Shown piece after piece: positions 7,690 through 21,129 of a stretch of DNA of 33,670 nt. Positions within the stretch are counted from its first letter, which is position 1, and every line of letters begins with the position of its first letter. The notes beneath the pieces were generated by a model. That model was not told where the DNA came from. It ran no database searches and saw only the letters and a program-made list of their open reading frames with translations. The stretch comes from Candidatus Accumulibacter adjunctus (GTDB lineage Bacteria; Pseudomonadota; Gammaproteobacteria; Burkholderiales; Rhodocyclaceae): NCBI GenBank assembly GCA_000585015.1, contig JFAX01000018.1, forward strand, positions 44,024 to 77,693, in the 5' to 3' direction. The position numbers and the translations under genes were made by a program.

Positions 7690-8047
7690 CTCTGCTCCTT
7701 TCTTGTTGATCAAACCGCTCTGGCGCCGATCTCGGCCGGAGCCCTTGCGGGCGTCCGCGCGTGCCGGCGTCTCTCCCCGACGGTGGCTCGGCAGAAGCAG
7801 CACGCGAAGTCTTGCCGCGATCTGCCGCCGGCCGGTCCTTGCCATGCCTTGCAGAACTGCATTGTAAGTGAGTTGCCCGCTTCGCAACCACCATTCCCAT
7901 GGTCGACCGATGGCGCGGCATCACTGCAGCGGGTCTGAGCACTGGCGTCGGGCACGCGCCGGTTGCAGCCGCCGGGCGTCGCGGACGTCGGCCGCCGCTT
8001 CGCCGGATGCGATGGCGTGTCGCTGCGGAGCTTTACATCTACTGGCA
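7690..8047. other. Divergent intergenic region before the defence cassette
   Basis: About 460 bases separate the acyl-CoA synthetase start from the helicase start. Frames here are short and do not resemble proteins. The part from 8048 on holds a palindrome and a promoter, listed separately. The part before it should contain the minus-strand promoter of the acyl-CoA synthetase gene, but no clear -35/-10 pair was recognised. No attachment site or direct repeat that would mark an island boundary was found by eye. Confidence 0.5.
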
Positions 8048-8065
8048 ACTATGCAAACGCATAGT
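8048..8065. promoter_or_regulatory. Perfect 7-4-7 palindrome, candidate operator
   Basis: ACTATGC and GCATAGT form perfect 7-bp arms around AAAC. The element ends seven bases before the -35 box of the helicase promoter. XRE-type repressors bind such sites, and the helicase itself begins with an XRE-like HTH domain, so autoregulation is plausible. The palindrome is seen; binding is inferred. Confidence 0.55.
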
Positions 8066-8072
8066 AGAAGCG

Positions 8073-8101
8073 TTGACAGTACAGGATCATTGCGATACGG
8101 T
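8073..8101 (+). promoter_or_regulatory. Candidate sigma-70 promoter for the defence cassette
   Basis: A perfect TTGACA -35 box at 8073-8078 is followed after exactly 17 bases by TACGGT (8096-8101), a weak -10. The helicase ATG lies about 50 bases downstream. The -10 matches the consensus at only three of six positions, so activity may depend on an activator or be low. Confidence 0.5.
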
Positions 8102-8152
8102 CCATGGAACTGGAACTGGAAGCGGCTGCCAAGTCGTCGAGGACATCGCTGG

Positions 8153-11100
8153 ATGGAGGCGACCGAAATCCGAACGCTGCGCGAAAGGCTTGGGCTGACC
8201 CAGGCGGCAATGGCCGCGCAGCTCGGGGTCAACTTCGTGACCCTTTCGCGCTGGGAACTGGGACGCAGCCGACCGTCCGCGCTTGCGCTGGGTAGGCTGC
8301 GCGAGTTGGATCGGGCGGAGTCAACATCGCGGTCTGCGCCGGTTGCTTCCGTTGCCGTCGAGGCTGAAGAGCGGGCAGGCCAGAAGCTGGACTTCCTCGG
8401 CGACCCGAATCAGCTGCGGACGCTCGTCGAGGGCGAGCGGCTCAGCTACGGCCACCTGTTCAACCCGGCCTTCGCCACCGAGATCAGCCAGGTTGATCCG
8501 CTGCCGCATCAGCGGATCGCGGTGTACGAACGGATGCTGCCTCAGCCGCGTCTGCGCTTCGGCCTGTTTGATGATGCCGGCGCCGGCAAGACCATCATGA
8601 CCGGGCTCTACATCCGCGAGAGCCTGTCACGGCGTAGGCTACGCCGCGTCCTGGTTGTCGTCCCCGCCGGGCTGGTGGGCAACTGGTACCGCGAGATGCG
8701 GACGCTGTTCCAACTGTCCTTCCGCATCGTCACGGGCAGCGACGCGCGGCGGGGCAACCCCTTCACCGGCGCGGACAGCGACCTCGTGATCGTCAGCGTC
8801 GATAGTCTCCGGGGCCAGGCCTTGTTCGGATGCCTGAGCGGCGCCACCGTCTCCCCGTATGAACTCGTCGTGTTCGACGAGGCGCACAAGCTGAGCGCCA
8901 ACCGCGATCCCGACGGCACCTTCAGGCCCACCGACCGCCATCGCCTTGCCGAGGCGCTCGCCGGGGTGCGCGATGTTCCGGACGAGTGGCGTCTCGGGTG
9001 GAGCGCTCACCACCTGCTGCTCCTGACCGCGACGCCCCACATGGGCAAGCCGTTCCCGTACTACTGCCTGTGGAGACTGCTCGAGCCGGAGATCTTCTCG
9101 ACCGAGACGGCCTTCGCTTCGTTCGCCGCAGACGACCGCAAGAAGTATTTCGCCCGGCGGGTCAAGGAAGAGATGGTCGACCTGCGCGGCGCGCCGCTGT
9201 ACCCGCTGCGCGTTTGCGACACGCACAGCTACGAGCTGAGCCAGGGGCCGCTCAGCGAACAGGAGCTGTACGACAGGACCACCGCCTACATCCGCCACTT
9301 CTACAACCAGGCACGGCTGCTCAACCGTTCTGCGGCGCGCTTCGCGATGACCATCTTCCAGCGTCGCCTTGCCAGCAGCACCTGGGCGCTGCTGCGCTCG
9401 CTGCGAAACCGCCTGGATAAGCTCGAAACGCTCATCGACGACATCCAGTCCGGCCGGATTCCGGAGGAACAGCTGCGCGAGCAGCAGCGGCGGCTCGATC
9501 GCCAAGTCCGCGACACGCTGATTGATGCGACCGCCGACGAGGAGGGTGCCGAGGGCGGCATCGAAGAGCACGAGAAGGACGAGGCGCAGGCACTTGCCGC
9601 CTTCGTCGCTACCAATCTGGCCGAGCTGGTCGCTGAGCGCGAGAAGCTCAGGGAACTTGTCGGTCTCGCGGAGGCCGTCTACGCGCGTGGCCTGGAAAGC
9701 AAGTTCGAGAAGTTGCGCGAGTTCCTGCGCAGCCCGGAGTTCGAGCACGAGAAGGTGATCATCTACACCGAGCACCGCGACACGCTGGACTTTCTGCTGC
9801 GCCGGCTCGAAGCGATGGGCCATGCCGGGCAGGTGGCCTGCATCCACGGTGGGCTGGACTTCGCGGCACGCGACACTCAGGTGGACCTGTTCCGCCGCCC
9901 GCACGGTGCCAAGTCCGGGCCCGATGGGTCAGGCGCACGGTTTTTCGTCGGCACCGACGCCGCGGCCGAGGGCATCAACCTCCAGTTCTGCTGGGTGCTC
10001 GTCAACTACGACGTGCCATGGAACCCGGCGCGTCTCGAGCAACGCATGGGCCGGATCCACCGCTACGGCCAGAAGAAGGATCGGGTCGCGATCCTCAATC
10101 TCGTTGCCGGCAAGACCCGTGAGGGTCGCGTGGTGCAAACCCTGCTCAACAAGATGGAGGCGATCCGCAAGGAACTGGGATCGGACAAGGTCTTCGACGT
10201 CATCGGGCGCATCTTCGAGGGACTGTCGCTCAACGACTACATCCAGCGCGCAATCGTCTCCGAGGACGCGGCCGAGCGCGAAGCGCTCGATCTGGCCGGG
10301 CACCTGACGGTGGAGCAGATCCGGGCGATCGCGGCGCGCGAAGAGGCGATCTTCGGCCGTGGTGGCGAGGTGGTGACAGACCTGCCCAAGCTGCAGGAGG
10401 CGATGCACATCGAGGAAATGCGCCGCCTGCTGCCCGGCTATGTTCGCCGCTACCTGGAACACGCCGCACCGACCATCGACGTCGATCTCGTCGGCGACCT
10501 CGACAGCGCCTTCTTCCTGCGTGCTCGAAAGAAGGGCGCGCTGGACAGCGTCATTCCCCTGCTGGAAAGCTACCGCGAGTCAGCCCGAGCGCGGCTCACC
10601 GTGTATCGCCCAGCCGATAGCCGCGATGCGGTGTTTCTGCATCCGGGTGAACCGGTCTTTGAGCGTCTGTCCGCCCTCGCCGTGGAACGTTGCCGCCTTG
10701 CCGGCCGGCGAGGGGCAGTCTTCGTCGATGTCTCCGCGTCGGCGCCATATCTGCTTCACGTCATGCGCGCAAGCGTCGTGCGGCGCTTGGACGAAGCGTA
10801 TCCGGCCATGCACCAGGACGAGGTGCTCGAGCAGTGCCTGGTCGCGGTAAAGCAGTTTGGGGACAACCGCATCGAGGAGACCTCCGTCGAGCAGATCCTG
10901 CTCCTGCGGCCGGCGTCGAAAGTGGACGCGGCCAGCGTCGGCTTCGTTGCCCAAGGCAACACCTACCGCCTCGCTGCGGAGGAGTTCGTCGCGGGCACCT
11001 TGCTTCAACGAATGAGCGATGTTCGTCGACTGCAAGCGATCGATCGGCTGCGCGACACGGAGGACCACCTGCGCCGCGCCTACGACTATCAGGAATCCGA

Positions 11101-11728
11101 GCTGGCGTCGGCGCGCAAGCGTTGCACCGAACGCGCCCGCGAAGGCGACAAACGCGCCCTCGCCGAGCTCGAGCGCATCAAGCAGCAGCAGCGCGGGCTG
11201 TCCGAGCGCCGCGACGTCGCGATGGCGCAGGCGCGGCGCGAAGCCGAGCTGATCCAGCCGGGCCAGGTCGAACGGATTGCCAGCGCCCTCGTGCAGCCAT
11301 CGACCAACCCGGAGGACGTCAAGGCCCGCGACATCGAGGTCGAGCGCATCGCCATGGAAATCACCATGGCGTATGAGACTGCGGCCGGCGGCGCGGCGCG
11401 TGATGTCTCCACACCTGACAAGGCCAGGCTCGCCGGACTGACCGACCATCCGGGATTCGACATCTTCTCGAAACGCCACGACCACGAGCGCGCGATCGAA
11501 GTGAAGGGCAGGGTCGAGACCGGCGACATCGAGTTGACCGAGAACGAATGGGCGAAGGCGATCAACCTGCGGAGCCGCTACTGGCTCTACGCCGTCTTCG
11601 ACTGCGGCAGCGGGTCGCCGCGGCTCGTCCGGGTGCAGGATCCCTTCGGGAAGCTGGTCGCCCGCTCGCAGGCCGGCTTCGTCGTGTCGGCCAAGGCCAT
11701 CCTGGACGCCGCCGAGGTCCGGTGGTGA
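8153..11728 (+). CDS. HTH-SNF2 helicase-DUF3883 protein (putative defence helicase)
   Basis: The 1191-residue protein combines three modules. Residues 1-50 form an XRE-like helix-turn-helix (LGLTQAAMAAQLGVNFVTLS). Residues about 110-720 form an SNF2-family ATPase: Walker A GAGKT (143-147), DEAH (242-245), motif V TDAAAEGINLQ and motif VI QRMGRIHRYGQ (630-640). Residues about 1090-1175 match the DUF3883 nuclease-like fold (HERAIEVKGR, then ELTENEWAKA). Related large SNF2 helicases work in DISARM (DrmD) and BREX. The likely role is ATP-driven movement on DNA to find or process invading DNA. The ATG at 8153 was chosen because it begins the HTH domain and has a GAGGA upstream. It is the first gene of the cassette. 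A fused HTH is unusual for this helicase class as far as I know. Confidence 0.88.
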   Translation: MEATEIRTLRERLGLTQAAMAAQLGVNFVTLSRWELGRSRPSALALGRLRELDRAESTSRSAPVASVAVEAEERAGQKLDFLGDPNQLRTLVEGERLSYGHLFNPAFATEISQVDPLPHQRIAVYERMLPQPRLRFGLFDDAGAGKTIMTGLYIRESLSRRRLRRVLVVVPAGLVGNWYREMRTLFQLSFRIVTGSDARRGNPFTGADSDLVIVSVDSLRGQALFGCLSGATVSPYELVVFDEAHKLSANRDPDGTFRPTDRHRLAEALAGVRDVPDEWRLGWSAHHLLLLTATPHMGKPFPYYCLWRLLEPEIFSTETAFASFAADDRKKYFARRVKEEMVDLRGAPLYPLRVCDTHSYELSQGPLSEQELYDRTTAYIRHFYNQARLLNRSAARFAMTIFQRRLASSTWALLRSLRNRLDKLETLIDDIQSGRIPEEQLREQQRRLDRQVRDTLIDATADEEGAEGGIEEHEKDEAQALAAFVATNLAELVAEREKLRELVGLAEAVYARGLESKFEKLREFLRSPEFEHEKVIIYTEHRDTLDFLLRRLEAMGHAGQVACIHGGLDFAARDTQVDLFRRPHGAKSGPDGSGARFFVGTDAAAEGINLQFCWVLVNYDVPWNPARLEQRMGRIHRYGQKKDRVAILNLVAGKTREGRVVQTLLNKMEAIRKELGSDKVFDVIGRIFEGLSLNDYIQRAIVSEDAAEREALDLAGHLTVEQIRAIAAREEAIFGRGGEVVTDLPKLQEAMHIEEMRRLLPGYVRRYLEHAAPTIDVDLVGDLDSAFFLRARKKGALDSVIPLLESYRESARARLTVYRPADSRDAVFLHPGEPVFERLSALAVERCRLAGRRGAVFVDVSASAPYLLHVMRASVVRRLDEAYPAMHQDEVLEQCLVAVKQFGDNRIEETSVEQILLLRPASKVDAASVGFVAQGNTYRLAAEEFVAGTLLQRMSDVRRLQAIDRLRDTEDHLRRAYDYQESELASARKRCTERAREGDKRALAELERIKQQQRGLSERRDVAMAQARREAELIQPGQVERIASALVQPSTNPEDVKARDIEVERIAMEITMAYETAAGGAARDVSTPDKARLAGLTDHPGFDIFSKRHDHERAIEVKGRVETGDIELTENEWAKAINLRSRYWLYAVFDCGSGSPRLVRVQDPFGKLVARSQAGFVVSAKAILDAAEVRW

Positions 11729-11752
11729 CGGCCTCGCGCAGGCACGAAAAGA

Positions 11753-11798
11753 GACGCCTCCACGAGGGAGGCGTCGGGCCGGAGATGCGATCTCCGGC
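11753..11798 (+). terminator. Two tandem hairpins between helicase and NYN gene
   Basis: A perfect 9-bp stem with an ACGAG loop (11753-11775) is followed three bases later by a perfect 9-bp stem with a GCG loop (11778-11798). Neither is followed by a T-run. They could terminate part of the helicase transcript, stabilise its 3' end, or attenuate expression of the downstream genes. Confidence 0.4.
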
Positions 11799-11816
11799 GG
11801 GGTTGATGCGTGGCAT

Positions 11817-11832
11817 TATCGCGAGTGCGATA
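11817..11832. promoter_or_regulatory. 6-4-6 inverted repeat before the NYN gene
   Basis: TATCGC and GCGATA flank GAGT, 44 bases before the NYN start codon. The spacing of four and the outer TAT/ATA resemble the palindrome at 8048-8065. It could be a second operator of the same regulator or a third small hairpin. No convincing -35/-10 pair is next to it. Confidence 0.35.
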
Positions 11833-11876
11833 GGTGGCGTCAAGCCGCTGTTGCGGCCTTGGTGGAGTACTTCACG

Positions 11877-12497
11877 ATGACTCGGGTCATCTCGTATATC
11901 GACGGATTCAACCTCTACTTCGGCCTGCGCTCGAAGGGATGGCGCAAGTACTACTGGCTCGACCTCGTTGCTCTGTCCACGAGCCTGCTCAAACCTGGCC
12001 AAGAACTTCAGGCCGTCCACTACTTCACGACCCGCATCCGCAACAACCGGCACAACAGCCAGGATATCCAACGGCAGAACATGTATCTCGAAGCGCTGGG
12101 CATGCGGCCGGCGTTGTCACTGCACTTTGGCCACTACCTCGAGAAGCCGAAGCAGTGCCGAAAGTGCGGCGCGACCTGGATGGACTTCGAGGAGAAGATG
12201 ACCGACGTCAACATCGCCGTTCAGCTGCTTGCGGACGCCTTTGATGATCGATTCGACACGGCGCTGCTCGTCTCCGCGGACAGCGTTCTCACGTCGCCGG
12301 TACGTCAGGTGCGGAACCGTTTTCCGCTGAAACGAATCGTCGTTGCGCAGCCGCCGGGACGACACTCCAGCGAGCTGACGAAGGCAGCGACGGGATTCGT
12401 CACGGTGGGCGAGGACAAGCTGCGGCAGTCGCAGCTGCCGCCATTGGTCGCGCGTTCAGACGGGTTCGTTCTGCAGCGCCCGACCTACTGGACATGA
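11877..12497 (+). CDS. NYN (LabA-like PIN) domain protein, putative nuclease
   Basis: The 206-residue protein matches the NYN branch of the PIN-like nucleases: YIDGFNLYFGL near the N-terminus (Asp9), EEKMTDVNIAVQLLADA in the middle (Asp110) and LLVSADSVLTSP (Asp135). A CxxC pair (Cys94, Cys97) precedes the central helix, as in many relatives. In the usual SADSD or SGDSD motif the last aspartate is an acidic site; here it is Val137, so metal binding may be altered. The predicted role is RNA or DNA cleavage within the defence cassette. The ATG at 11877 has GGTGGAG upstream. The stop overlaps the next start as ATGA, showing translational coupling. Confidence 0.85.
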   Translation: MTRVISYIDGFNLYFGLRSKGWRKYYWLDLVALSTSLLKPGQELQAVHYFTTRIRNNRHNSQDIQRQNMYLEALGMRPALSLHFGHYLEKPKQCRKCGATWMDFEEKMTDVNIAVQLLADAFDDRFDTALLVSADSVLTSPVRQVRNRFPLKRIVVAQPPGRHSSELTKAATGFVTVGEDKLRQSQLPPLVARSDGFVLQRPTYWT

Positions 12498-12901
12498 GTC
12501 TTCTGCGCATGGGAACAGCGATGACTCGTGCTCGACCCGCTGCAATGGCGGAACGGCTGAAGCTCGGGGAGGTGGACCCTTGCGCGACGACAGACGCGCA
12601 GTGCGACGCCATCACGCAGCAGATCGACGCCGCGGTCGAGGCAGCCGGTCGCGGGTCGCGGATGCAGACCGTCAACGGCAACTGCGGCCCAAATCGCGGC
12701 ATCGCCTCAGACCTTCTGATTGTTCTGGCGGTCGCGCCAGCAGTACCTCCGCTCAACGGCCCTGTTCCGTGCAGCGTGCTGGTTGCGATCGGACTGGCCG
12801 CGTCGCGCATGCATCGGGTTGGAACGTACTGCGGACGCGAGCTGTTTGTGCAGTTCCTGCAGCTGCCGGCCAGCGAACGACCTCCGGAGAACAAAACATG
12901 A
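12494..12901 (+). CDS. Unrecognised 135-residue protein coupled to both neighbours
   Basis: I recognise no family. The gene exactly fills the 400-bp space between the NYN and methyltransferase genes. Its ATG overlaps the NYN stop (ATGA at 12494-12497), and its own TGA overlaps the methyltransferase ATG (ATGA at 12898-12901). This double overlap is strong evidence for a translated, coupled gene. The product has five cysteines (30, 37, 64, 93, 113), a hydrophobic stretch DLLIVLAVAPAV (73-84) and another SVLVAIGLAAS (94-104), and a charged Pro-containing tail. There is no signal peptide. It may be a small subunit, a specificity or inhibitor protein of the methyltransferase, or a degenerate remnant kept for coupling. 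Function is unknown. Confidence 0.65.
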   Translation: MSLLRMGTAMTRARPAAMAERLKLGEVDPCATTDAQCDAITQQIDAAVEAAGRGSRMQTVNGNCGPNRGIASDLLIVLAVAPAVPPLNGPVPCSVLVAIGLAASRMHRVGTYCGRELFVQFLQLPASERPPENKT

Positions 12902-15900
12902 GTGGTCCGAACGGCAAGCGCCTGATCGAAGTCGCATTCCCGCTGAAACAGGCGTCGATCGATTCCGTCCATGAGAAGAACGTCCGGCACGGGCACATCT
13001 CGACGCTGCACATCTGGCCTGCGCGGCGACCGCTGGCGGCATCGCGGGCGGCGCTGATCGCCACCCTGCTGCCCGATCCCGGCGACAAGGAGATGCGCGA
13101 CGAGATCCTGAAGCGGCTCGGCGGCACGGTCGTCACGGCGGTCAAGCGCAAGAAGCTGCCTTCCGGCAAGGTCGAGGACGTGGTCTCGGAGGAAACGCAG
13201 GGCGGCATCCTGCACTGGGGTCGCGAGTCCGGGCCCGACCTGGACTGGTTTCGCGCCGAGATCCGCAAGGCTTACGGCGGGCGGGCGCCGAAGGTGCTCG
13301 ACCCCTTCGCCGGTGGCGGCGCGATCCCGCTGGAGGCGATGCGCCTCGGCTGCGAGGTGACCGCGGTGGACCTCAACCCGGTGGCGTGGTTCATCCTGAA
13401 GTGCACGCTCGAGTATCCACAGAAGCTCGCCGGGCAGAAGCGGCGCCTGCCCGATTTCGCGCTCGCCGATCGCGAGTTCATGACCGCCTACCTGAAGGCG
13501 CTCGGGTTGAAGCCCGCGGCCATCCGGACGCAGCTCGACCTGCTGACGGGCCAGACGCCCAGCGCTGCGCAGCGAGAGATGTTCGAGCATCTTCAGCTCG
13601 ATCCCGCGCTGCTGCAGGCCGATCTCGCCTGGCATGTGCGCGCCTGGGGCCGCTGGGTGCTGCGCGAGGCGCGCCGCGAACTCGCACGCTTCTACCCGAC
13701 GTATGCCGAGTTCTGCTCGCTCGCTCCCTACCGGCGCGTGCCGCTCGCGCGGGAGGAGCAGCTCAGGCTGGTGCCGACCAACGCGGCCGGTGAGCCGCAG
13801 ATCGAGCTGCTGAATGCCGGCTTCGACAGGAAGACCTATCTCGACAACGACGAGAACCCGCGCTGGCTGGCCAAGCCGACGGTCGCCTACCTGTGGGCGC
13901 GCACCGTCAAGTGCAAGGCCTGCCGCGCCACCGTGCCGCTGTTGAAGACCCGCTGGCTGGCGAAAAAGGACAACAAGCGGGTCGTACTGGCGATGGAGCC
14001 GAACGCCGACGGCACAGGGGTGGTGTTCGGCATCGATTGGGAGGCGAAGGTCCAGGGCGGCAACGCCGCCCAGCGGCGGGAGTACGACAAGCGGCTTGGC
14101 GCAGGCACGATGAGTCGTTCCGGGGCCTCTTGTCCCTGCTGCGGAACCATCATGACGCAGGAAGACCTGCGGCTCGAAGGCCGTACTGGTCGCTTGGGCG
14201 CCGTCATGACTGCAGTGGTAGTCGACGGTGTCGAAGGCAAGGAATATCGGCTGCCGACCGAGCATGAAAGTGCGGTGGCACATGCCGCCGAAGCGGACCT
14301 GGAGCGGGCGTTCGAAAGTGTGCCACTCGGGCTGCCAAGAGAAGCGATACCCCTTGGCGCAAGCCGCGAGGGAGGCGGCTCGGCCTTCACAGTGCCTCTC
14401 TATGGCATCGACGAGTGGCAAAAGCTCTTCACGGCGCGGCAGCTCGTGGCACTGAGTTGTTTTCTCAAAGCTATCAGGGCAGTGCCGGCGCGATTTACTT
14501 CCGAGGAAGCCACATGGCGTGAGGCTTTGGCGGCATATCTCGCCACCGTGCTCGACAAGTCCGCGGACTACGGATCAGCTATCTGCACTTGGCATAACTC
14601 TGGGGAGAAGATGCGCAACACCTTTCCCAGATTTGCGTTGCCGATGGCTTGGGACATCGCAGAGCTGCCCCTGCCAAATTCCGTAGGCGGCGCTTGGGAG
14701 GCGCAACTGGACTGGGCTGCACGTTACGTCGAGCACGCAACTGGCGCAGTCGACGGCGGTAGGGCCCATGCTATGCAGCGCTCGGCAACCCGGCCGCTTG
14801 ACGAGCAGGTGGATGTCGTCGTAACCGATCCGCCGTACTACGACGCCATCCCCTATTCGGACCTGATGGACTTCTTCTACGTCTGGCTGCGGCGAATATT
14901 GTTGAACCTCTCGCCCGAGTTCGATGCGGCATTCGCTGAACCGCTGGCGCCGAAGTGGAACCATCTGGCCAACGACGGTGAGCTCATCGACGACGCTTCT
15001 CGCTTTGGCGGCGACAAGGCTGCGTCGAAGAAGAACTACGAAGACGGAATGGCGCGTGCATTCCAGGCGTGTAATGCGGCACTGAAGGCCGACGGACGGC
15101 TGGTTGTCGTGTTTGCCCACAAGCATCCCGATGCCTGGGAAACGCTGGTATCCGCAATCATCCGCGCTGGATTCGTGGTGGACGCTTCTTGGCCCATACA
15201 AACCGAAATGGGCAACCGCATGCGGGCGATGTCGTCTGCTGCCTTGGCATCATCGGTCTGGTTGGTCTGCAGGAAGCGCGATCCATCGGTCCGCGCCGGC
15301 TGGGACGCGCAGGTGCTGAAGGAAATGGAGACCAGCATCGTCGCGAAGCTGCGCGACTTCTGGGATGCCGGCATCCGCGGTCCCGACTTCGTCTGGGCCG
15401 CCACGGGCCCGGCCTTGCAGGCGTACAGCCGGTATCCGGCAGTCAAGAAGGCGTCCGAGCCCGGCGCGCTGATGACGGTGACGGAGTTCCTGCGCTACGT
15501 GCGCCGCATCGTCGTCGACTTCGTCGTTGGCCGCGTTCTGACACGCGGCGAGGCGGTTGCCACCGACGGCGCCGGCCTTGACGACCTGACCGCGTATTAC
15601 CTCCTGCACCGCAACGACTTCGGCCTCAAGGATGCGCCCGCCGGCGCCTGCATCCTGTACGCGGTCTCGTGCAACCTCTCCGAGCGGCAGTTGGCCGATC
15701 AGTACGAGATGCTCAGCCGTGGCAAAGGAGCGGCCGCGGAGGAGGAAGGCGAGGATGCGGAGGCTGAGGAGGGCGCGGAAGAGGTCGAGCGGAGCGGCGG
15801 TGGTGGCACGTTCCGGCTGCGCGCATGGTCGCAGCGCAGGCATCGGATGCTGGGTCTGGACTCCGAAGGCGGTCGCGCGGCGCCGCTGATCGACCAGGTT

Positions 15901-16116
15901 CACAAACTGATGCACCTGTGGAAGGGTGGCGACGTCAACAAGGTCAACGAATACCTCGACTCGCGTGGTCTGCGACGGAGCCCCATCTTCGCGCAACTGC
16001 TGCAAGCATTGATCGAGCTCGCGCCGCACGGCGACGAGGAGCGGTCGATCCTGGAGAGCCTTTCGAATCACGTACGCAGCCTGGGCGCTGCGGCCCAGGG
16101 TGCGTTGCCGGTTTGA
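12898..16116 (+). CDS. DUF1156 / COG1743 adenine-specific DNA methyltransferase
   Basis: The 1072-residue protein begins with the DUF1156 region (KRLIEVAFPLKQ, HISTLHIWPARRPLAASRAA). The SAM-binding motif LDPFAGGGAIPLEAMRLG is at about 134-151. The catalytic motif TDPPYYDAIPYSD starts near residue 643, about 500 residues later. Between them lie two CxxC pairs (Cys339/Cys342 and Cys412/Cys415) that fit the zinc ribbon of COG1743. An acidic linker (about 945-970) precedes a C-terminal helical part. The expected activity is N6-adenine or N4-cytosine methylation of host DNA, marking self or acting within the system. It follows the small gene by an ATGA overlap and precedes the DUF499 gene by 41 bases. 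The segment from about 14130 to 15290 has visibly lower G+C than its flanks. Confidence 0.9.
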   Translation: MSGPNGKRLIEVAFPLKQASIDSVHEKNVRHGHISTLHIWPARRPLAASRAALIATLLPDPGDKEMRDEILKRLGGTVVTAVKRKKLPSGKVEDVVSEETQGGILHWGRESGPDLDWFRAEIRKAYGGRAPKVLDPFAGGGAIPLEAMRLGCEVTAVDLNPVAWFILKCTLEYPQKLAGQKRRLPDFALADREFMTAYLKALGLKPAAIRTQLDLLTGQTPSAAQREMFEHLQLDPALLQADLAWHVRAWGRWVLREARRELARFYPTYAEFCSLAPYRRVPLAREEQLRLVPTNAAGEPQIELLNAGFDRKTYLDNDENPRWLAKPTVAYLWARTVKCKACRATVPLLKTRWLAKKDNKRVVLAMEPNADGTGVVFGIDWEAKVQGGNAAQRREYDKRLGAGTMSRSGASCPCCGTIMTQEDLRLEGRTGRLGAVMTAVVVDGVEGKEYRLPTEHESAVAHAAEADLERAFESVPLGLPREAIPLGASREGGGSAFTVPLYGIDEWQKLFTARQLVALSCFLKAIRAVPARFTSEEATWREALAAYLATVLDKSADYGSAICTWHNSGEKMRNTFPRFALPMAWDIAELPLPNSVGGAWEAQLDWAARYVEHATGAVDGGRAHAMQRSATRPLDEQVDVVVTDPPYYDAIPYSDLMDFFYVWLRRILLNLSPEFDAAFAEPLAPKWNHLANDGELIDDASRFGGDKAASKKNYEDGMARAFQACNAALKADGRLVVVFAHKHPDAWETLVSAIIRAGFVVDASWPIQTEMGNRMRAMSSAALASSVWLVCRKRDPSVRAGWDAQVLKEMETSIVAKLRDFWDAGIRGPDFVWAATGPALQAYSRYPAVKKASEPGALMTVTEFLRYVRRIVVDFVVGRVLTRGEAVATDGAGLDDLTAYYLLHRNDFGLKDAPAGACILYAVSCNLSERQLADQYEMLSRGKGAAAEEEGEDAEAEEGAEEVERSGGGGTFRLRAWSQRRHRMLGLDSEGGRAAPLIDQVHKLMHLWKGGDVNKVNEYLDSRGLRRSPIFAQLLQALIELAPHGDEERSILESLSNHVRSLGAAAQGALPV

Positions 16117-16157
16117 GAGCGCAGCTGCTACGAGACACACAGAAGAAGGACTTGCAC

Positions 16158-19100
16158 ATGGCCAAGATCAGCACGAAGCCCTGGCACAAGGTGGTCGACT
16201 TGAGGCCGGACATCCGCAGCGGCGAACTGTCGCAGAAGGAGTTCGCCGCGGACCTCTACGACGTGATGATGGAACGCAACCGCTCCGTCTACCACGACCC
16301 GAAGGAGTTCTTCGGGCTGACGTATCCGACGACCAAGCTGCGCGACCTGGCGCGTGACGTGGTCCTCAGGCTCGCTGGGAAGTCGGAAAAGGCCGTCCGG
16401 CAGCTCCAGCTCACCTACGGCGGCGGCAAGACGCATGCGCTGATCACGCTGGTGCACCTGACCGCCGCGCCAGATAAGCTGCCCAAGCTGCCGGCGGTGG
16501 ACGAGTTCATCACGCACATCGGTACCGTGCCAGCCAAGGCGCGCATTGCCGCCCTGGTCTTCGACCAGCTCGACCTCGAAACCGGCATGGACGTCAAGGC
16601 GCCGGACGGGACGGTGCGCCGTTTCAGGATGCCCTGGAGCGCGCTGGCGTGGCAGTTGGGCGGCACGACCGGACTCCAGGTTCTGGGCAGGGCGGACGGC
16701 GAGCGCGACACGGCGCCGGCGACGAACGTCCTGGAAGAGCTGCTCGCGCTGCCGGGCAAGGAGGGCCTGGCGACCCTGGTCCTGCTCGACGAGGTGCTGA
16801 TGTGGGCGCGGCAGGTCGTCGGCGCCGACACGGCCTGGCTCGGCAAGGCGGAGTACTTCTTTCAGTGCCTCACGCAGGCGGCAGGACGGGTTCCGGGCTG
16901 CGCGCTGGTCGCCTCGCTGCTGGCGTCCGATCCGGCGCAGAGCGACGAGCTCGGCAAGAAGATCGAGAAGGCGCTGTACGAGACCTTCCAGCGCGTATCG
17001 GATGCTGGCGTGCAGCCGGTGGAGCGGCAGGACGTCGCCGAGGTGCTGCGGCGGCGGCTGCTGGCACCGGCGAGCTACACGCAGCGGGCCGATTGGAAGC
17101 AGCAGGTGGTGAGCGCGCTCAACGGCATCTGCGAGCTCGACGAGCAGACGAAGAAGAACCGCTCGCTCGAGGAAGATCGCTTTCTGGCGGCGTTCCCGTT
17201 CCATCCGAACCTGACCGATGCGTTCTTCGAGAAGTGGACGCAGCTGGAGGGCTTCCAGCGCACGCGCGGCGTTCTGCGGACCTTCGCACTGGCGTTGCGG
17301 GATGCCGAGAAGTGGGGTGATCCAACGCCTGTCATCGGTCCGGCGGCGTTCCTCGCTGCGCCGACGGACTTCGCGCTGACCGATGCCACGCGCGAGCTGG
17401 CGACGATCGCCCGCACCGAGCAGTACGAGGGCAAGCGGCAGGACTGGCAGGCGATCCTCGAAGGCGAAATCAAGAAGGCCCGCGAGATCCAGGAGGAGGG
17501 CTTCGGACTCAAGTTTCGCGAGATCGAGCAGGCCGTCGTCGCGACCTTCCTGCACTCGCAGCCGATCGGCCAGAAGGCGCGGACACGGGAACTGCTGGTG
17601 ATGCTCGGCGCCAACGGCCCGGACAGGATCGATCTCGCCAAAGGTCTTGCGCGCTGGGCGGACGTGTCGTGGTACCTGGATGACACCTTCACGGCGGAGA
17701 AGGAAGGCAACCTGCCGAAGGTCTGGCGTCTGGGCTCGAGGCCGAACCTCAGGCAGATGCACCACGACGCCCGGCAGCACGTCTCGGGAACCGTGCTCGA
17801 CGAGCTGCTGGAGAGGGAGATCGGCCAGATCAGGCGTTTGACCGAAGGCGCGCGCACGATGGGCGCGGCTGTCCACATGCTGCCGTCCAGGGCCGCGGAT
17901 ATCGAGGACGACGGCGAGTTTCACTACGCGGTGCTTGGCCCGAAGGCCGCGTCCGAGTCGGGCAAGCCGAGCGCGGAAGCCAGGCGGTTCATCGACGAGA
18001 CCACCGTGGCTGACCGGCCTCGCGCCACCAATCGGAACGCGGTCGTGCTCGCCGTGCCATCCAGGGACGGCATCGAACTCGCCCGCGAGAAGCTCCGCGA
18101 CCTGCTCGCCTGGGACAAGGTGCGCGAGCTGCTGAAGAGTCGCGACGACATCGAACCAGTCCGCTTCGCGCAGCTCGACGCGAACCTGCGGGCGGCGCGC
18201 GGCGAGATGACGTCGCAGCTGATCATGGCCTATTGCGTCGTCGTGACGGTGAACGAGGCGAACGAGGTGGCGGCGTTTCGTCTTCCCATCGACAACCAGC
18301 CGCTGTTCATCAAGATTGTCAACGAGCGGCGTGCCCGCATCGAGAGCACCGCGGTCAACGCCGAGGCGCTCCTGCCCGGCGGGCCCTACGATCTGTGGCA
18401 GGCAGCCGAGAAGTCGCGCTATGTGAAGGACCTGGTTGGCGCCTTCGCTTCCACCGCACGGCTGCCGAAGATGCTGAACCGGGGGGCGATCCTCGACACC
18501 TTGTTGCTCGGTTGCGTGGCCGGCGATTTCGTCCTGCAGGTCACGCGGGCCGACAGGTCGGTCCGCACCTTCTGGAGGTCGCGTCCGGATGACCTGGCCC
18601 TGCGTGACCCGTCGCTGGAAGTCGTGCTGCCGGATGCCGCGACCCTCGTCGACCTTGATGCCGCGCTGCTCGCGCCGGGAATCCTCCCAGGTCTTTGGCA
18701 GACGGACGCAATCAATCTCAGCGACGCCGCGGCGTACTTCTCGGGCAAGCACTGCGTGCCGATCGACAAGGGGGGCTACACGGAACCACTGTCGATTCCT
18801 GGCGCATCAGCGGAAGCGATCAAGGGTGCGGTGGCGGCTGCCGTCAAGTCGGGGCGGGTGTGGCTGCTGAACGGGACGATCAGTGTCTGCGGCGACGATG
18901 TGCCTGCCGGATTTCTGACCGACGAAGCACAGCTGCTGCCGCCGCCGGCACCGTTGTCGACAGCCGACCTGCTGCCGGCGAATCTGCCGGCGGCCTGGGC
19001 CGAGAGGGTCACCACCGCGCATCTGATCCACGCCTCGCTCTCGAACAAGCGGGGCAAGCCACTGCCCTGGGCTCCGGTCAGGCAGGCGCTCGACGAGGCC

Positions 19101-19433
19101 TTCCGGCTGGGGGTCCTCGAGCGGACGGCGGATTCCCACGACTGGCCGACTGATTTCGGCGGCGCCGCCGGCGTGAAGTTCGTCCGGACCGGAATCAAGG
19201 AGCCGCCGCCGAAGAAGGGCTACGGCGCAAGGCAGCTCATGGCCGAGCTGCGCCCGAACGAGATCCAGGACCTCGCCGACCAGCTCGGCGAGCTGACGAA
19301 GGCTGCCGCGGGACATGATCTGAAGTTTTCGCTGCGGATTGAGCTGGGGACCGAAAAGGAGCCGCCGGACGAGGTGGTGGTACAGATGAACAGGATTCTG
19401 GGCGGGATCAAGACGGGGATGCGGCTCGAGTAA
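16158..19433 (+). CDS. DUF499 / COG1483 AAA+ ATPase, defence-associated
   Basis: The 1091-residue protein begins with KPWHKVVDLRPDIRSGELSQ, a typical DUF499 start. It has Walker A TYGGGKTHAL (GGGKT 88-92) and Walker B LVLLDEVLMW (Asp211, Glu212). The remaining two thirds are a long alpha/beta region without motifs I recognise. COG1483 ATPases are repeatedly found beside COG1743 methyltransferases in defence islands, which is exactly the arrangement here. The ATPase may use ATP to move along or remodel DNA, or to control the methyltransferase or helicase. AAGAAGGA precedes the ATG at 16158. It is the last gene of the cassette, and a long hairpin follows its stop. Confidence 0.88.
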   Translation: MAKISTKPWHKVVDLRPDIRSGELSQKEFAADLYDVMMERNRSVYHDPKEFFGLTYPTTKLRDLARDVVLRLAGKSEKAVRQLQLTYGGGKTHALITLVHLTAAPDKLPKLPAVDEFITHIGTVPAKARIAALVFDQLDLETGMDVKAPDGTVRRFRMPWSALAWQLGGTTGLQVLGRADGERDTAPATNVLEELLALPGKEGLATLVLLDEVLMWARQVVGADTAWLGKAEYFFQCLTQAAGRVPGCALVASLLASDPAQSDELGKKIEKALYETFQRVSDAGVQPVERQDVAEVLRRRLLAPASYTQRADWKQQVVSALNGICELDEQTKKNRSLEEDRFLAAFPFHPNLTDAFFEKWTQLEGFQRTRGVLRTFALALRDAEKWGDPTPVIGPAAFLAAPTDFALTDATRELATIARTEQYEGKRQDWQAILEGEIKKAREIQEEGFGLKFREIEQAVVATFLHSQPIGQKARTRELLVMLGANGPDRIDLAKGLARWADVSWYLDDTFTAEKEGNLPKVWRLGSRPNLRQMHHDARQHVSGTVLDELLEREIGQIRRLTEGARTMGAAVHMLPSRAADIEDDGEFHYAVLGPKAASESGKPSAEARRFIDETTVADRPRATNRNAVVLAVPSRDGIELAREKLRDLLAWDKVRELLKSRDDIEPVRFAQLDANLRAARGEMTSQLIMAYCVVVTVNEANEVAAFRLPIDNQPLFIKIVNERRARIESTAVNAEALLPGGPYDLWQAAEKSRYVKDLVGAFASTARLPKMLNRGAILDTLLLGCVAGDFVLQVTRADRSVRTFWRSRPDDLALRDPSLEVVLPDAATLVDLDAALLAPGILPGLWQTDAINLSDAAAYFSGKHCVPIDKGGYTEPLSIPGASAEAIKGAVAAAVKSGRVWLLNGTISVCGDDVPAGFLTDEAQLLPPPAPLSTADLLPANLPAAWAERVTTAHLIHASLSNKRGKPLPWAPVRQALDEAFRLGVLERTADSHDWPTDFGGAAGVKFVRTGIKEPPPKKGYGARQLMAELRPNEIQDLADQLGELTKAAAGHDLKFSLRIELGTEKEPPDEVVVQMNRILGGIKTGMRLE

Positions 19434-19446
19434 CGGGGTTGATCGT

Positions 19447-19483
19447 AGTCACTCGCTCCACGCCAAAGGCGGGACGAGTGACT
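19447..19483 (+). terminator. Long bulged hairpin after the DUF499 gene
   Basis: AGTCACTCG (19447-19455) pairs perfectly with CGAGTGACT (19475-19483). Inside, TCC/GGA and CGCC/GGCG extend the stem with two single-base bulges around an AAA loop, giving about 16 base pairs. No T-run follows. It lies 14 bases after the stop, a good place for transcription termination or mRNA 3'-end protection. Confidence 0.55.
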
Positions 19484-19575
19484 CAGGTTGCAAGTCGCCT
19501 TCTTGTGAGCATCGCGTCAGCGTCTCGCAACCTCGCTTCTCAGGCACGCGGGAGAAGGTACCGGGGGTGAGGGGG

Positions 19576-19624
19576 AACGGTCATGGCTTTCACCATCAGG
19601 GGCGTCTCGACAGCCATGACCGTT
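19576..19624 (-). terminator. 13-bp perfect inverted repeat after the patatin gene
   Basis: AACGGTCATGGCT (19576-19588) and AGCCATGACCGTT (19612-19624) are perfect 13-bp arms around 23 bases, lying 17 bases beyond the stop of the minus-strand patatin gene. The element probably ends that transcript. The long loop and the lack of a U-run leave open that it is instead a repeat or binding site. Confidence 0.45.
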
Positions 19625-19641
19625 GACCGCGGTCCGGTCGG

Positions 19642-20805
19642 CTAACGGAGGTCGAAGACCGGTGGAAAATGGCCTTCCTCGACCTTGCGGGCGACCGCCT
19701 GGCCGATCTCGATCAGTTGCGGCATGTTCTTCGGTTGGTCCATCTCGCGCAGCGCCTTCGCATCGGCATCGCTGTAATCCGGGCGGACGTTGGCGCGCAG
19801 CCAGTCGCCGTCGAGGTGGGCGTTGTAGCGCAGGTAGGTGAGCAAGGGCAGTCCGCCGCCCGGATGGTCGGTGGCCAGGTCGCCGACCTCGCGATCGATC
19901 ACCCGCGCCGTCGGGCTGACCGACATCCACTGCAGCAGCTGCTCGTTGAGCGCCAGCGCATCGTCCATCAGCGACGCCAGTCCGATCACCGCCTCGGCCG
20001 CTGCGGGTGCCTTCTGGCCGGGGTCGAGAGCCGTCTCGTTGATGCCCGTACCACAGGAGACGAGCAGCAGCCTGTCGGCCCCTGCCGGCCACTGCAGCGC
20101 ATAACCGCGCAGCCAGGCGAGCATCAGCAACTGCAGCGATGGGTTGTTGTGCGGGCTGACGCCGCCATCGACGAAGACTCCGGCCTGATCCTTGCCGCCG
20201 GCATCGCGGCCGACGACCAGCTTCTCGGGATCGAAGTAATGCGGTGCCGCGGTGCTCGCGCGAACGATCTGCCAGAGCAGGAACTCGCTGTTGGCGAGCG
20301 CCTTGCCACCCGGCCGCGGGCTGAAGTAGCGGCCGCGCGGGTTGTTGTGCACGACCCACGGGCTGCCGGTATCGAAGCGCTTGAGCATGATCGCCAGACC
20401 GGTGCGGATGCGCGTCGGGTCGCCGAGCCTGATGTCGCCGAACTGCCGCTTGAGCGCCTTCTCGAGCGGCGCTTTCGAGAACTTGGCGCGCAGCAGCCCC
20501 CAGCGCAGCAGGTCGGGTTCGAAGATCGCGTCGCCCAGCTCCTGGTAGAGGGTTTCGAGGTCCGCTGCCGACATGCCGGTCGCCAGGCCGGCAGCGAGAA
20601 TGGCGCCCGTCGACGTGCCGCCGATGAGGTCGAAGTAGTCGCACAGGCGGAACGTGTCGTCACCGCCGGCACGCGCGCGCAACAGGCTTTCGATGCGCTT
20701 CAGGATCTGGACGGTGAGGACGCCACGGATGCCGCCGCCGTCGAGGGCCAGGATTCGCTTCGGTCCGGGGCTGAAAAGATGTTCGTCGCGATTGGGTCGG
20801 GTCAT
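19642..20805 (-). CDS. Patatin-like phospholipase
   Basis: The 387-residue protein should hydrolyse acyl chains from phospholipids with a Ser-Asp dyad. The oxyanion-hole motif DGGGIRG is at 22-28, the nucleophile lies in GGTSTG (Ser65), and the catalytic aspartate in VDGGVSPHNNP (Asp213). No signal peptide or secretion domain is visible, so it is probably cytosolic. The ATG at 20805 has GTGAGGA upstream and gives a short N-terminal tail before the first strand. It converges with the defence cassette. Patatin proteins serve as effectors in CBASS, but no cyclase or sensor gene is present here, so a housekeeping lipid role is at least as likely. Confidence 0.88.
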   Translation of the reverse strand: MTRPNRDEHLFSPGPKRILALDGGGIRGVLTVQILKRIESLLRARAGGDDTFRLCDYFDLIGGTSTGAILAAGLATGMSAADLETLYQELGDAIFEPDLLRWGLLRAKFSKAPLEKALKRQFGDIRLGDPTRIRTGLAIMLKRFDTGSPWVVHNNPRGRYFSPRPGGKALANSEFLLWQIVRASTAAPHYFDPEKLVVGRDAGGKDQAGVFVDGGVSPHNNPSLQLLMLAWLRGYALQWPAGADRLLLVSCGTGINETALDPGQKAPAAAEAVIGLASLMDDALALNEQLLQWMSVSPTARVIDREVGDLATDHPGGGLPLLTYLRYNAHLDGDWLRANVRPDYSDADAKALREMDQPKNMPQLIEIGQAVARKVEEGHFPPVFDLR

Positions 20806-21129
20806 GGTTGCGGTCCTCACGGCTGTGACGCACGGGTTGCAGAAGGCTGTGGCGAAGGGTCGGCGGCCGGCGCCGCGGAGCTCCAGCGCGCATTGGCGAA
20901 TCCCGCTCGATCGACGGCCTGCCCATTGGCCGCCCCGGCAACCGCCGGTCGCCTGGCAGCCGCCGGGTCGGCCGGGCCGCTTCGGACCCTGCCCGCAGAC
21001 GGCCATTCTAAGCGCATTGCAGCGGCCCTGGTTGCCGATCGCTGGTCATCGCCGCGGTTTTCCTGCGCAGCGGCCGTGGCGCTCGCCGCGTGGCTGTTGG
21101 CATCGGCAGTCGGCAGCCGGGTCGGCGGC
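20806..21129. other. Divergent intergenic region, patatin / mtnA
   Basis: This stretch between divergent genes must hold the patatin promoter and upstream sequences of mtnA. A TTGGCA at 21097-21102 is too far from the mtnA -10 box to act as its -35. No supported gene or repeat was seen. Confidence 0.5.

Follow-up and report, generated by a model that had tools for sequence, protein, structure and literature searches.

The window, a stretch of 33,670 nucleotides from Candidatus Accumulibacter adjunctus (assembly GCA_000585015.1, contig JFAX01000018.1, positions 44,024 to 77,693), carries five adjacent open reading frames (ORFs) on its plus strand, which an original prediction made from the sequence alone had proposed to be a distinct five-gene defense system. 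ORF calling recovers the five same-strand genes, and the compactness described for the last four (within 7.6 kb, with overlaps or short gaps) is borne out: they span 11877 to 19433 (7.56 kb), with 4-nt overlaps (ATGA) between NYN and ORF3 at 12494-12497 and between ORF3 and HmaB at 12898-12901, and with 41 bp between HmaB and HmaC. The 148-bp gap between HmaA and NYN contains a structured element. Pfam agrees with the families that had been named, giving in order HTH_3 with SNF2/Helicase_C and NOV_C, NYN, ORF3 without a match, DUF1156, and DUF499. The most likely starts are ATG 8153 for HmaA (MEATEIR..., as in near relatives, rather than 8048) and ATG 11877 for NYN. Below, G000 and C18 denote the window genome and contig, and other G and L numbers the compared genomes and loci.

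About 7898 to 19641: the inserted segment, as delimited by comparison with the uninterrupted site of G016 (and, give or take some tens of bases, that of G014)
8048 to 8065, no strand assigned: ACTATGCAAACGCATAGT, a perfect inverted repeat and putative operator for the window subclade, with imperfect counterparts in L033, L035, and L167
8073 to 8078, plus strand: TTGACA, shared with L033 and L035 and probably the -35 box of the HmaA promoter
8153 to 11728, plus strand: HmaA, with an N-terminal XRE-like helix-turn-helix (HTH; residues about 1 to 58), an SNF2-type helicase, and a C-terminal NOV_C/DUF3883 nuclease region (D1103, E1116, K1118)
11746 to 11808, minus strand: two-hairpin RNA element, read as an RNA of about 60 nt directed away from NYN; its minus-strand end is a GC hairpin plus U-run
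11815 to 11843, minus strand: predicted promoter of this RNA, with -35 TTGACG at 11838-11843 and -10 GATAAT at 11815-11820
11877 to 12497, plus strand: NYN-domain protein, PADLOC HEC-09, with Val137 versus Asp in the other 15/16 aligned rows
12494 to 12901, plus strand: ORF3, a stump from the C-terminal part of a membrane protein that is intact (218 aa) in L033, next to an MBL hydrolase
12898 to 16116, plus strand: HmaB, a DUF1156 DNA methyltransferase whose center (codons about 450 to 750) is replaced relative to L033
16158 to 19433, plus strand: HmaC, a DUF499 AAA+ ATPase

The Hma core and its cargo slot

In a search with the PADLOC models, a check that the original prediction had itself proposed, HmaA (E = 4e-151), HmaB (4e-124), and HmaC (6e-79) match the named Hma system and NYN matches HEC-09 (1.6e-94), all far above chance, with ORF3 unnamed. 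Hma is recognized by HmaA, HmaB, and HmaC together, and the window holds all three. We read the locus as a DUF499-centered, BREX-related system of the Hma type belonging to a divergent clade in which HmaA carries an HTH; taken in full, with the regulation and the RNA-restrained NYN nuclease discussed below, this is our best explanation and one slightly more likely than not.

A scan with four HmaB sequences returned 69 loci, mostly from metagenome-assembled genomes of many phyla. The order HmaA, HmaB, HmaC is constant wherever the genes are present, and HmaC is also seen in 57 of the 62 loci with HmaA and HmaB. Of 28 genomes of the genus, 13 match HmaB at 1e-50, with six window-clade loci scoring 256 to 290 bits and longer, canonical copies scoring 1050 to 1700 bits. 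The structure model of HmaA residues 1 to 300 comprises helices at residues 3 to 58 and a low-confidence linker at 59 to 124, with no strand before residue 134, so that the TUDOR domain of Type-1 BREX-related (BR) helicases is not seen in the window HmaA. At the level of sequence, HmaA is thus shown to have a predicted XRE-type HTH in the place that TUDOR is described to take in BR helicases, and all 50 loci of the upstream set described below have an HTH signature that ends in RWE.

Of the 62 loci, 54 have a gap of 560 bp or more between HmaA and HmaB, two have one of 260 to 560 bp, and six have one of less than 260 bp. The three closest cores (the window, L033, and L035) are 91 to 94% identical in HmaA and 89 to 96% in HmaC, and their gaps hold NYN with ORF3, an MBL hydrolase with a membrane protein, and a Ppl-like protein of 900 aa, respectively. 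As judged from these alignments, the gap is shown to be a slot with exchanged cargo. When 33 chosen slot proteins were scanned against PADLOC, 22 matched a model at 1e-10 or better, and the types comprise CBASS cyclase plus 2TM effector, HEC-07, PDC-S02, Ppl, PDC-M48B, PDC-S20, PDC-S32, SoFic/PDC-S04, ThsB-like TIR, and others; HEC-08 occupies the slot of the canonical locus L021. The scanned CBASS-type pair of cyclase and 2TM effector occupies L037:8490-9998 within the slot, and slot genes of L041, L075, L082, and L091 fall in the same sequence clusters as this pair. The gap between HmaB and HmaC holds a recurrent ATPase family (cluster c0) in L047, L049, L056, L057, L058, L060, L068, L073, and L076, and one slot-1 member of this cluster matches HEC-01A.

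Over 121 aa, ORF3 is 55% identical to the C-terminal part of the membrane protein of 218 aa, whose two N-terminal hydrophobic segments it lacks; the full-length protein occurs in four survey loci (L033, L086, L092, and L096). Synonymous divergence (dS) from L033 is 1.08 in ORF3 compared with 0.41 in HmaA, and ORF3 therefore came from another allele, while its ratio of nonsynonymous to synonymous divergence (dN/dS) of 0.30 is no demonstration of free decay. ORF3 was rejected as a conserved component, having matches only in G000 and G016 among 61 relatives. NYN stumps are found in L036, L045, and L078. The HmaB proteins of the window and L033 are 85 to 100% identical in blocks outside residues 376 to 825 and 35 to 56% identical in residues 451 to 750. 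Synonymous divergence between them reaches 2.79 in codons 450 to 750, against 0.58 before and 0.54 after, a peak that points to replacement of the central region by recombination rather than to selection alone. Near-identical cores with exchanged cargo, an exchanged methyltransferase center, and cargo stumps would make up a natural series of the re-arming of one defense chassis, and the swapped HmaB center predicts differing methylation sites.

At the insertion site, AMP-ligase and patatin genes adjoin without an insert in two of six same-genus regions (G016 and G014), the remaining four being aligned on the ligase side only. The 19 flanking ORFs scanned have Pfam matches only to common families of metabolism, transport, and the envelope, and no integrase is among them. 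The patatin-like phospholipase (19642-21006, minus strand) resembles CBASS effectors and scores below their cutoffs; it was rejected as a system component, because the same gene borders the uninterrupted site of G016 and G014 and so is part of the flanking chromosome. In G016, a few kb downstream of the sister Hma locus, there is a HEPN_Swt1-SNF2 helicase gene (L034:57-3422).

The palindrome upstream of HmaA

The upstream set comprises the survey loci whose HmaA matches that of the window from residue 16 or earlier and that hold at least 160 bp of upstream sequence, plus L167, with the duplicate L022 = L084 removed once; these 50 loci are thereby selected for HTH-bearing HmaA. In a test that presupposes no motif, perfect inverted repeats of the form 6-4-6 lie upstream of HmaA in 23 of the 50 loci (shuffled mean 1.9, maximum 5), and other spacings in at most 10. 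The motif derived from them, TATADCNNNNGHTATA (TATADC-N4-GHTATA), is exact in 27 loci and present with at most one mismatch in 36, against shuffled means of 0.0 and 0.3. All 27 exact copies in the 1,052,490 bp of loci sit upstream of HmaA, and none occurs in seven canonical loci.

Because the motif was derived from these same 50 loci, hold-out loci were tested, namely three new loci from an order search and the first seven of 21 viral loci, with L221 dropped because its upstream region is identical to that of a known locus. Among hold-out loci of the HTH type, the motif is exact in 4/5 and within one mismatch in 5/5, and the best match in four HTH-less HmaA relatives has 4 to 5 mismatches. Position 5 of the half-site is T in 17/17 loci with the HTH residue V and in 3/19 with residue A or P. 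From these patterns we infer that the HTH of HmaA binds the palindrome and represses its own operon. The palindrome was rejected as a genome-wide identifier: background matches occur in 219 of 398 genomes and commonly do not exceed the reversed control, so that it identifies nothing without HmaA.

HEC-09 and the RNA element beside it

The HEC-09 profile was searched in three overlapping samples of 101, 369, and 399 genomes. Matches of at least 290 bits occur at eight loci, seven of them Hma loci, of which five have a canonical core and two an HTH-type core; the eighth, L166, is next to a SIR2-like gene among housekeeping genes, without Hma. There, the HEC-09 NYN gene, the RNA element, and the SIR2-like gene form a small cassette (L166:8370-10218) between scpB-like and rluB-like genes. 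The 16 weaker loci of the class sample, some on short contigs, show no HmaB or HmaC; among weaker loci of the relatives sample, L024 shows an HmaC-like match at a distance of about 8 kb, L028 shows a helicase match, and L029, with an NYN stump, is in an Hma locus. NYN identity shows little relation to HmaB identity (Spearman 0.15, p = 0.37, 36 pairs), and L021 and L022 are 80% identical in NYN and 34% in HmaB. By comparison of these sequences, NYN is shown to move between cores. The NYN structure model has a predicted local distance difference test (pLDDT) score of 92.8, and its closest solved structure is 2qip, a protein of unknown function and the single fold match judged credible.

Upstream of NYN, an element of about 60 nt that folds as two hairpins is present in all 12 aligned loci, including two stumps and L166 (L036, at a contig edge, and L064, at 31% identity, were left out). 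Paired cells make up 93.8% on the plus strand and 97.4% on the minus strand, and on the minus strand 7 of 17 pairs are changed on both sides, a level reached in 0 of 500 shuffles. Eleven A-C cells of the plus strand are G-U on the minus strand, compared with three G-U on the plus strand, a balance of wobble pairs that is suggestive of the minus strand. The predicted minus-strand promoter averages 10.07 out of 12 across 15 loci, compared with 7.25 (maximum 7.67) after shuffling and 6.73 on the plus strand, and ends 5 to 7 nt before the element in 11 of these, 3 nt in two, 17 nt in L035, and 43 nt in L121. The predicted minus-strand RNA folds at -33.6 kcal/mol (z = -6.25). Tandem copies are found, three in L022 and two each in L021 and L020. 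Rfam gives no match over the element and two chance-level matches beside it.

With the covariance model used in the element searches (R2), 14 copies of at least 64 bits were found in 13 of 75 loci, 12 with NYN or a stump downstream, plus L035. In L122 and L133, weaker matches immediately precede NYN genes that are 45 to 46% identical to that of the window, with no HmaB or HmaC nearby, and these matches repeat the layout of promoter, hairpin, hairpin, and U-run; a third (L131) is not next to NYN, and L064 has no match to the model. Six of 200 genomes have copies scoring 64 bits or more, five next to NYN and the sixth in G045, and the next best match has 34.7 bits; matches below about 35 bits are treated as background here (49 of the 200 have some match at E = 0.001). 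Five of the six genomes had fed the model, the new finds being G045, L035, L122, and L133. Covariation and the conserved promoter support the view that HEC-09 travels with a putative two-hairpin RNA gene of about 60 nt directed away from NYN. L125 and L126 have two different hairpins just upstream of a distant NYN, that of L125 being terminator-like on the NYN strand by eye.

Interpretation and comparison with known systems

From what is known of these families, the central region of HmaB would determine the site at which this enzyme methylates self DNA, HmaC would join the SNF2 helicase HmaA in an ATP-driven complex, and the DUF3883 domain of HmaA would cut unmodified DNA; PMC12839542 likewise has the methyltransferase marking self DNA and the ATPase, helicase, and nuclease acting on DNA without the mark. 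The HTH of HmaA would sit on the palindrome at its own promoter and keep the operon self-repressed, and HmaA drawn onto invading DNA would ease this repression and raise expression. Together with its RNA, NYN may be a backup effector under RNA control. By analogy with RNA-antitoxin systems, the RNA would restrain the nuclease, and an infection that stops host transcription would lead to loss of the RNA and free NYN. In the window itself, NYN may be inactive, and ORF3 is a leftover. A wider claim joins two parts, namely that HEC-09 is the nuclease half of a mobile two-part module with a restraining, divergent RNA of about 60 nt (a new RNA-antitoxin class docking in the Hma slot) and that HTH-type HmaA is a self-repressor; we advance it tentatively, as a conjunction that may well fail.

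Several observations weigh against this picture. Covariation of the HTH residue with the half-site is not significant once corrected for descent and was rejected as proof, with only two independent pairs available. The window and its three closest relatives are without the canonical palindrome and have an altered recognition helix, and one universal palindrome was rejected as missing from this subclade. Some clade members may be without the HTH, as the HmaA of L054, L073, L074, and L085 matches only from residue 78-81. The NYN tree fails as a rejection of a single HTH-type NYN clade (p-AU 0.096). Window NYN has kept D9, D110, and D135 and has Val137 where Asp is found in the other 15/16 rows; this copy may be impaired or inactive, or Val137 may be an assembly error. 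The RNA element of L035 stands beside a Ppl-like gene in the slot and no NYN, and that of G045 lies in a canonical Hma locus whose available sequence shows no NYN and has lost much of HmaB. At most of the other distant NYN genes the element gives no match, with only a similar hairpin at L123 and L124, and an RNA on the opposite strand is unlike the order of type III toxin-antitoxin systems.

The persistence of the element in slots without NYN (L035 and G045), together with the GC hairpin and U-run at its minus-strand end, would suit a mere terminator or insulator between HmaA and the slot cargo, with NYN acting alone or with Hma and having no RNA partner. We consider this possible but doubtful, since the element has its own conserved promoter 5 to 7 nt before it in 11/15 loci, a second covarying hairpin, and tandem copies, and accompanies NYN in L166, L122, and L133, where neither HmaB nor HmaC is nearby. 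The HTH could also serve to guide the helicase to DNA targets or partners, with the palindrome bound by another regulator, given that it takes the place of TUDOR, which the available text of PMC12839542 describes as a possible reader; this is unlikely, because in the examined loci every exact copy of the motif precedes an HTH-type HmaA, with none in the seven canonical loci or the four HTH-less relatives, and because the half-site base goes with the HTH residue (17/17 versus 3/19), though not independently of descent. Less likely again is NYN as an effector subunit of the Hma core instead of independent cargo: seven of the eight strongest HEC-09 matches are indeed inside Hma loci, yet the L166 copy stands next to a SIR2-like gene without Hma, and NYN identity does not track HmaB identity (Spearman 0.15, 36 pairs).

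The originally predicted system of five cooperating proteins, which the tight overlaps of NYN, ORF3, and HmaB might favor, is very improbable. Its core is already named Hma, an outcome that the original prediction had itself listed as refuting; HEC-09 is named separately, and ORF3 is a stump, so that there is no new five-gene system. The comparisons refute a conserved set: NYN is found in a minority of window-clade loci and also without Hma, and ORF3, a truncated leftover, is missing next to other NYN genes. What stands of the prediction is a restriction-modification-type defense locus (DUF1156, DUF499, SNF2-DUF3883) and, for its unknown protein, the want of a family match; ORF3 as a system component falls, being the stump of other cargo. 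The Hma reading turns a list of defense families into testable regulatory claims about a restriction helicase with its own DNA-binding domain and a predicted site, and it gives a named embedded defense gene, HEC-09, an overlooked RNA element absent from family databases.

Type III toxin-antitoxin systems such as ToxIN resemble the NYN-RNA pair in joining a ribonuclease-fold protein to an adjoining structured, sometimes tandemly repeated RNA. The pair differs from them in its NYN fold and in an RNA with its own promoter on the opposite strand, which the promoter and wobble pairs favor over the same-strand RNA of type III systems; neutralization here is putative. The Hma system itself, named in PMC8565338, and the idea of embedded cargo, published in PMC12988326 (HEC, Hma-embedded candidate), are already known, as far as the available portions of these papers go. 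The window NYN matches HEC-09 with 313 bits over 202 of 203 positions (E = 1.6e-94), near the full model length, and differs from the available description in PMC12988326 by the adjoining RNA element reported here and by Val137. For the HTH-type HmaA, its palindrome, and the HEC-09 RNA, no description was met in the literature searched, which gives partial coverage and does not include a 2024 embedded-gene preprint; absence from print is not established.

The predicted absence of BREX and DISARM core genes from the locus holds. No MZB/DUF1998 match, as in DISARM, was found in the whole genome, and the DISARM DrmD model scores 311 bits against a cutoff of 610. PglZ, expected in Type-3 BR and BREX systems, is not in the locus, the one match of the genome being on contig C27 and not C18; this domain, at G000:C27:45546-46082, hints at a separate system elsewhere in the genome. 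DUF3780 and the HKD nuclease of Type-2 BR systems have no Pfam match among the window proteins scanned (genome-wide not searched), and to that extent the predicted absence of DUF3780 stands.

The available text of PMC12839542 treats such loci as BREX-related and lists auxiliary nucleases within and near them. Three components are common to the window and the Type-1 BR systems of that text, namely an ATPase with DUF499, an N6-methyltransferase with DUF1156, and an SNF2 helicase whose C-terminal nuclease is of the PD-(D/E)XK type; the nuclease residues D1103, E1116, and K1118 are kept in 61/61 aligned rows with letters there. The window clade differs from them in having HTH_3 rather than TUDOR at the helicase N terminus and a palindrome upstream of HmaA, and in that available text the terms XRE, repressor, autoregul-, and operator are never mentioned. 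With Hma the window shares an HmaA helicase, an HmaB methyltransferase, and an HmaC ATPase in one operon; its clade differs from canonical Hma in an HmaB that scores 256 to 290 bits in six genus loci, compared with at least 1050 for the longer canonical copies, in an HmaA with an N-terminal HTH, and in a cargo slot that is occupied in most loci.

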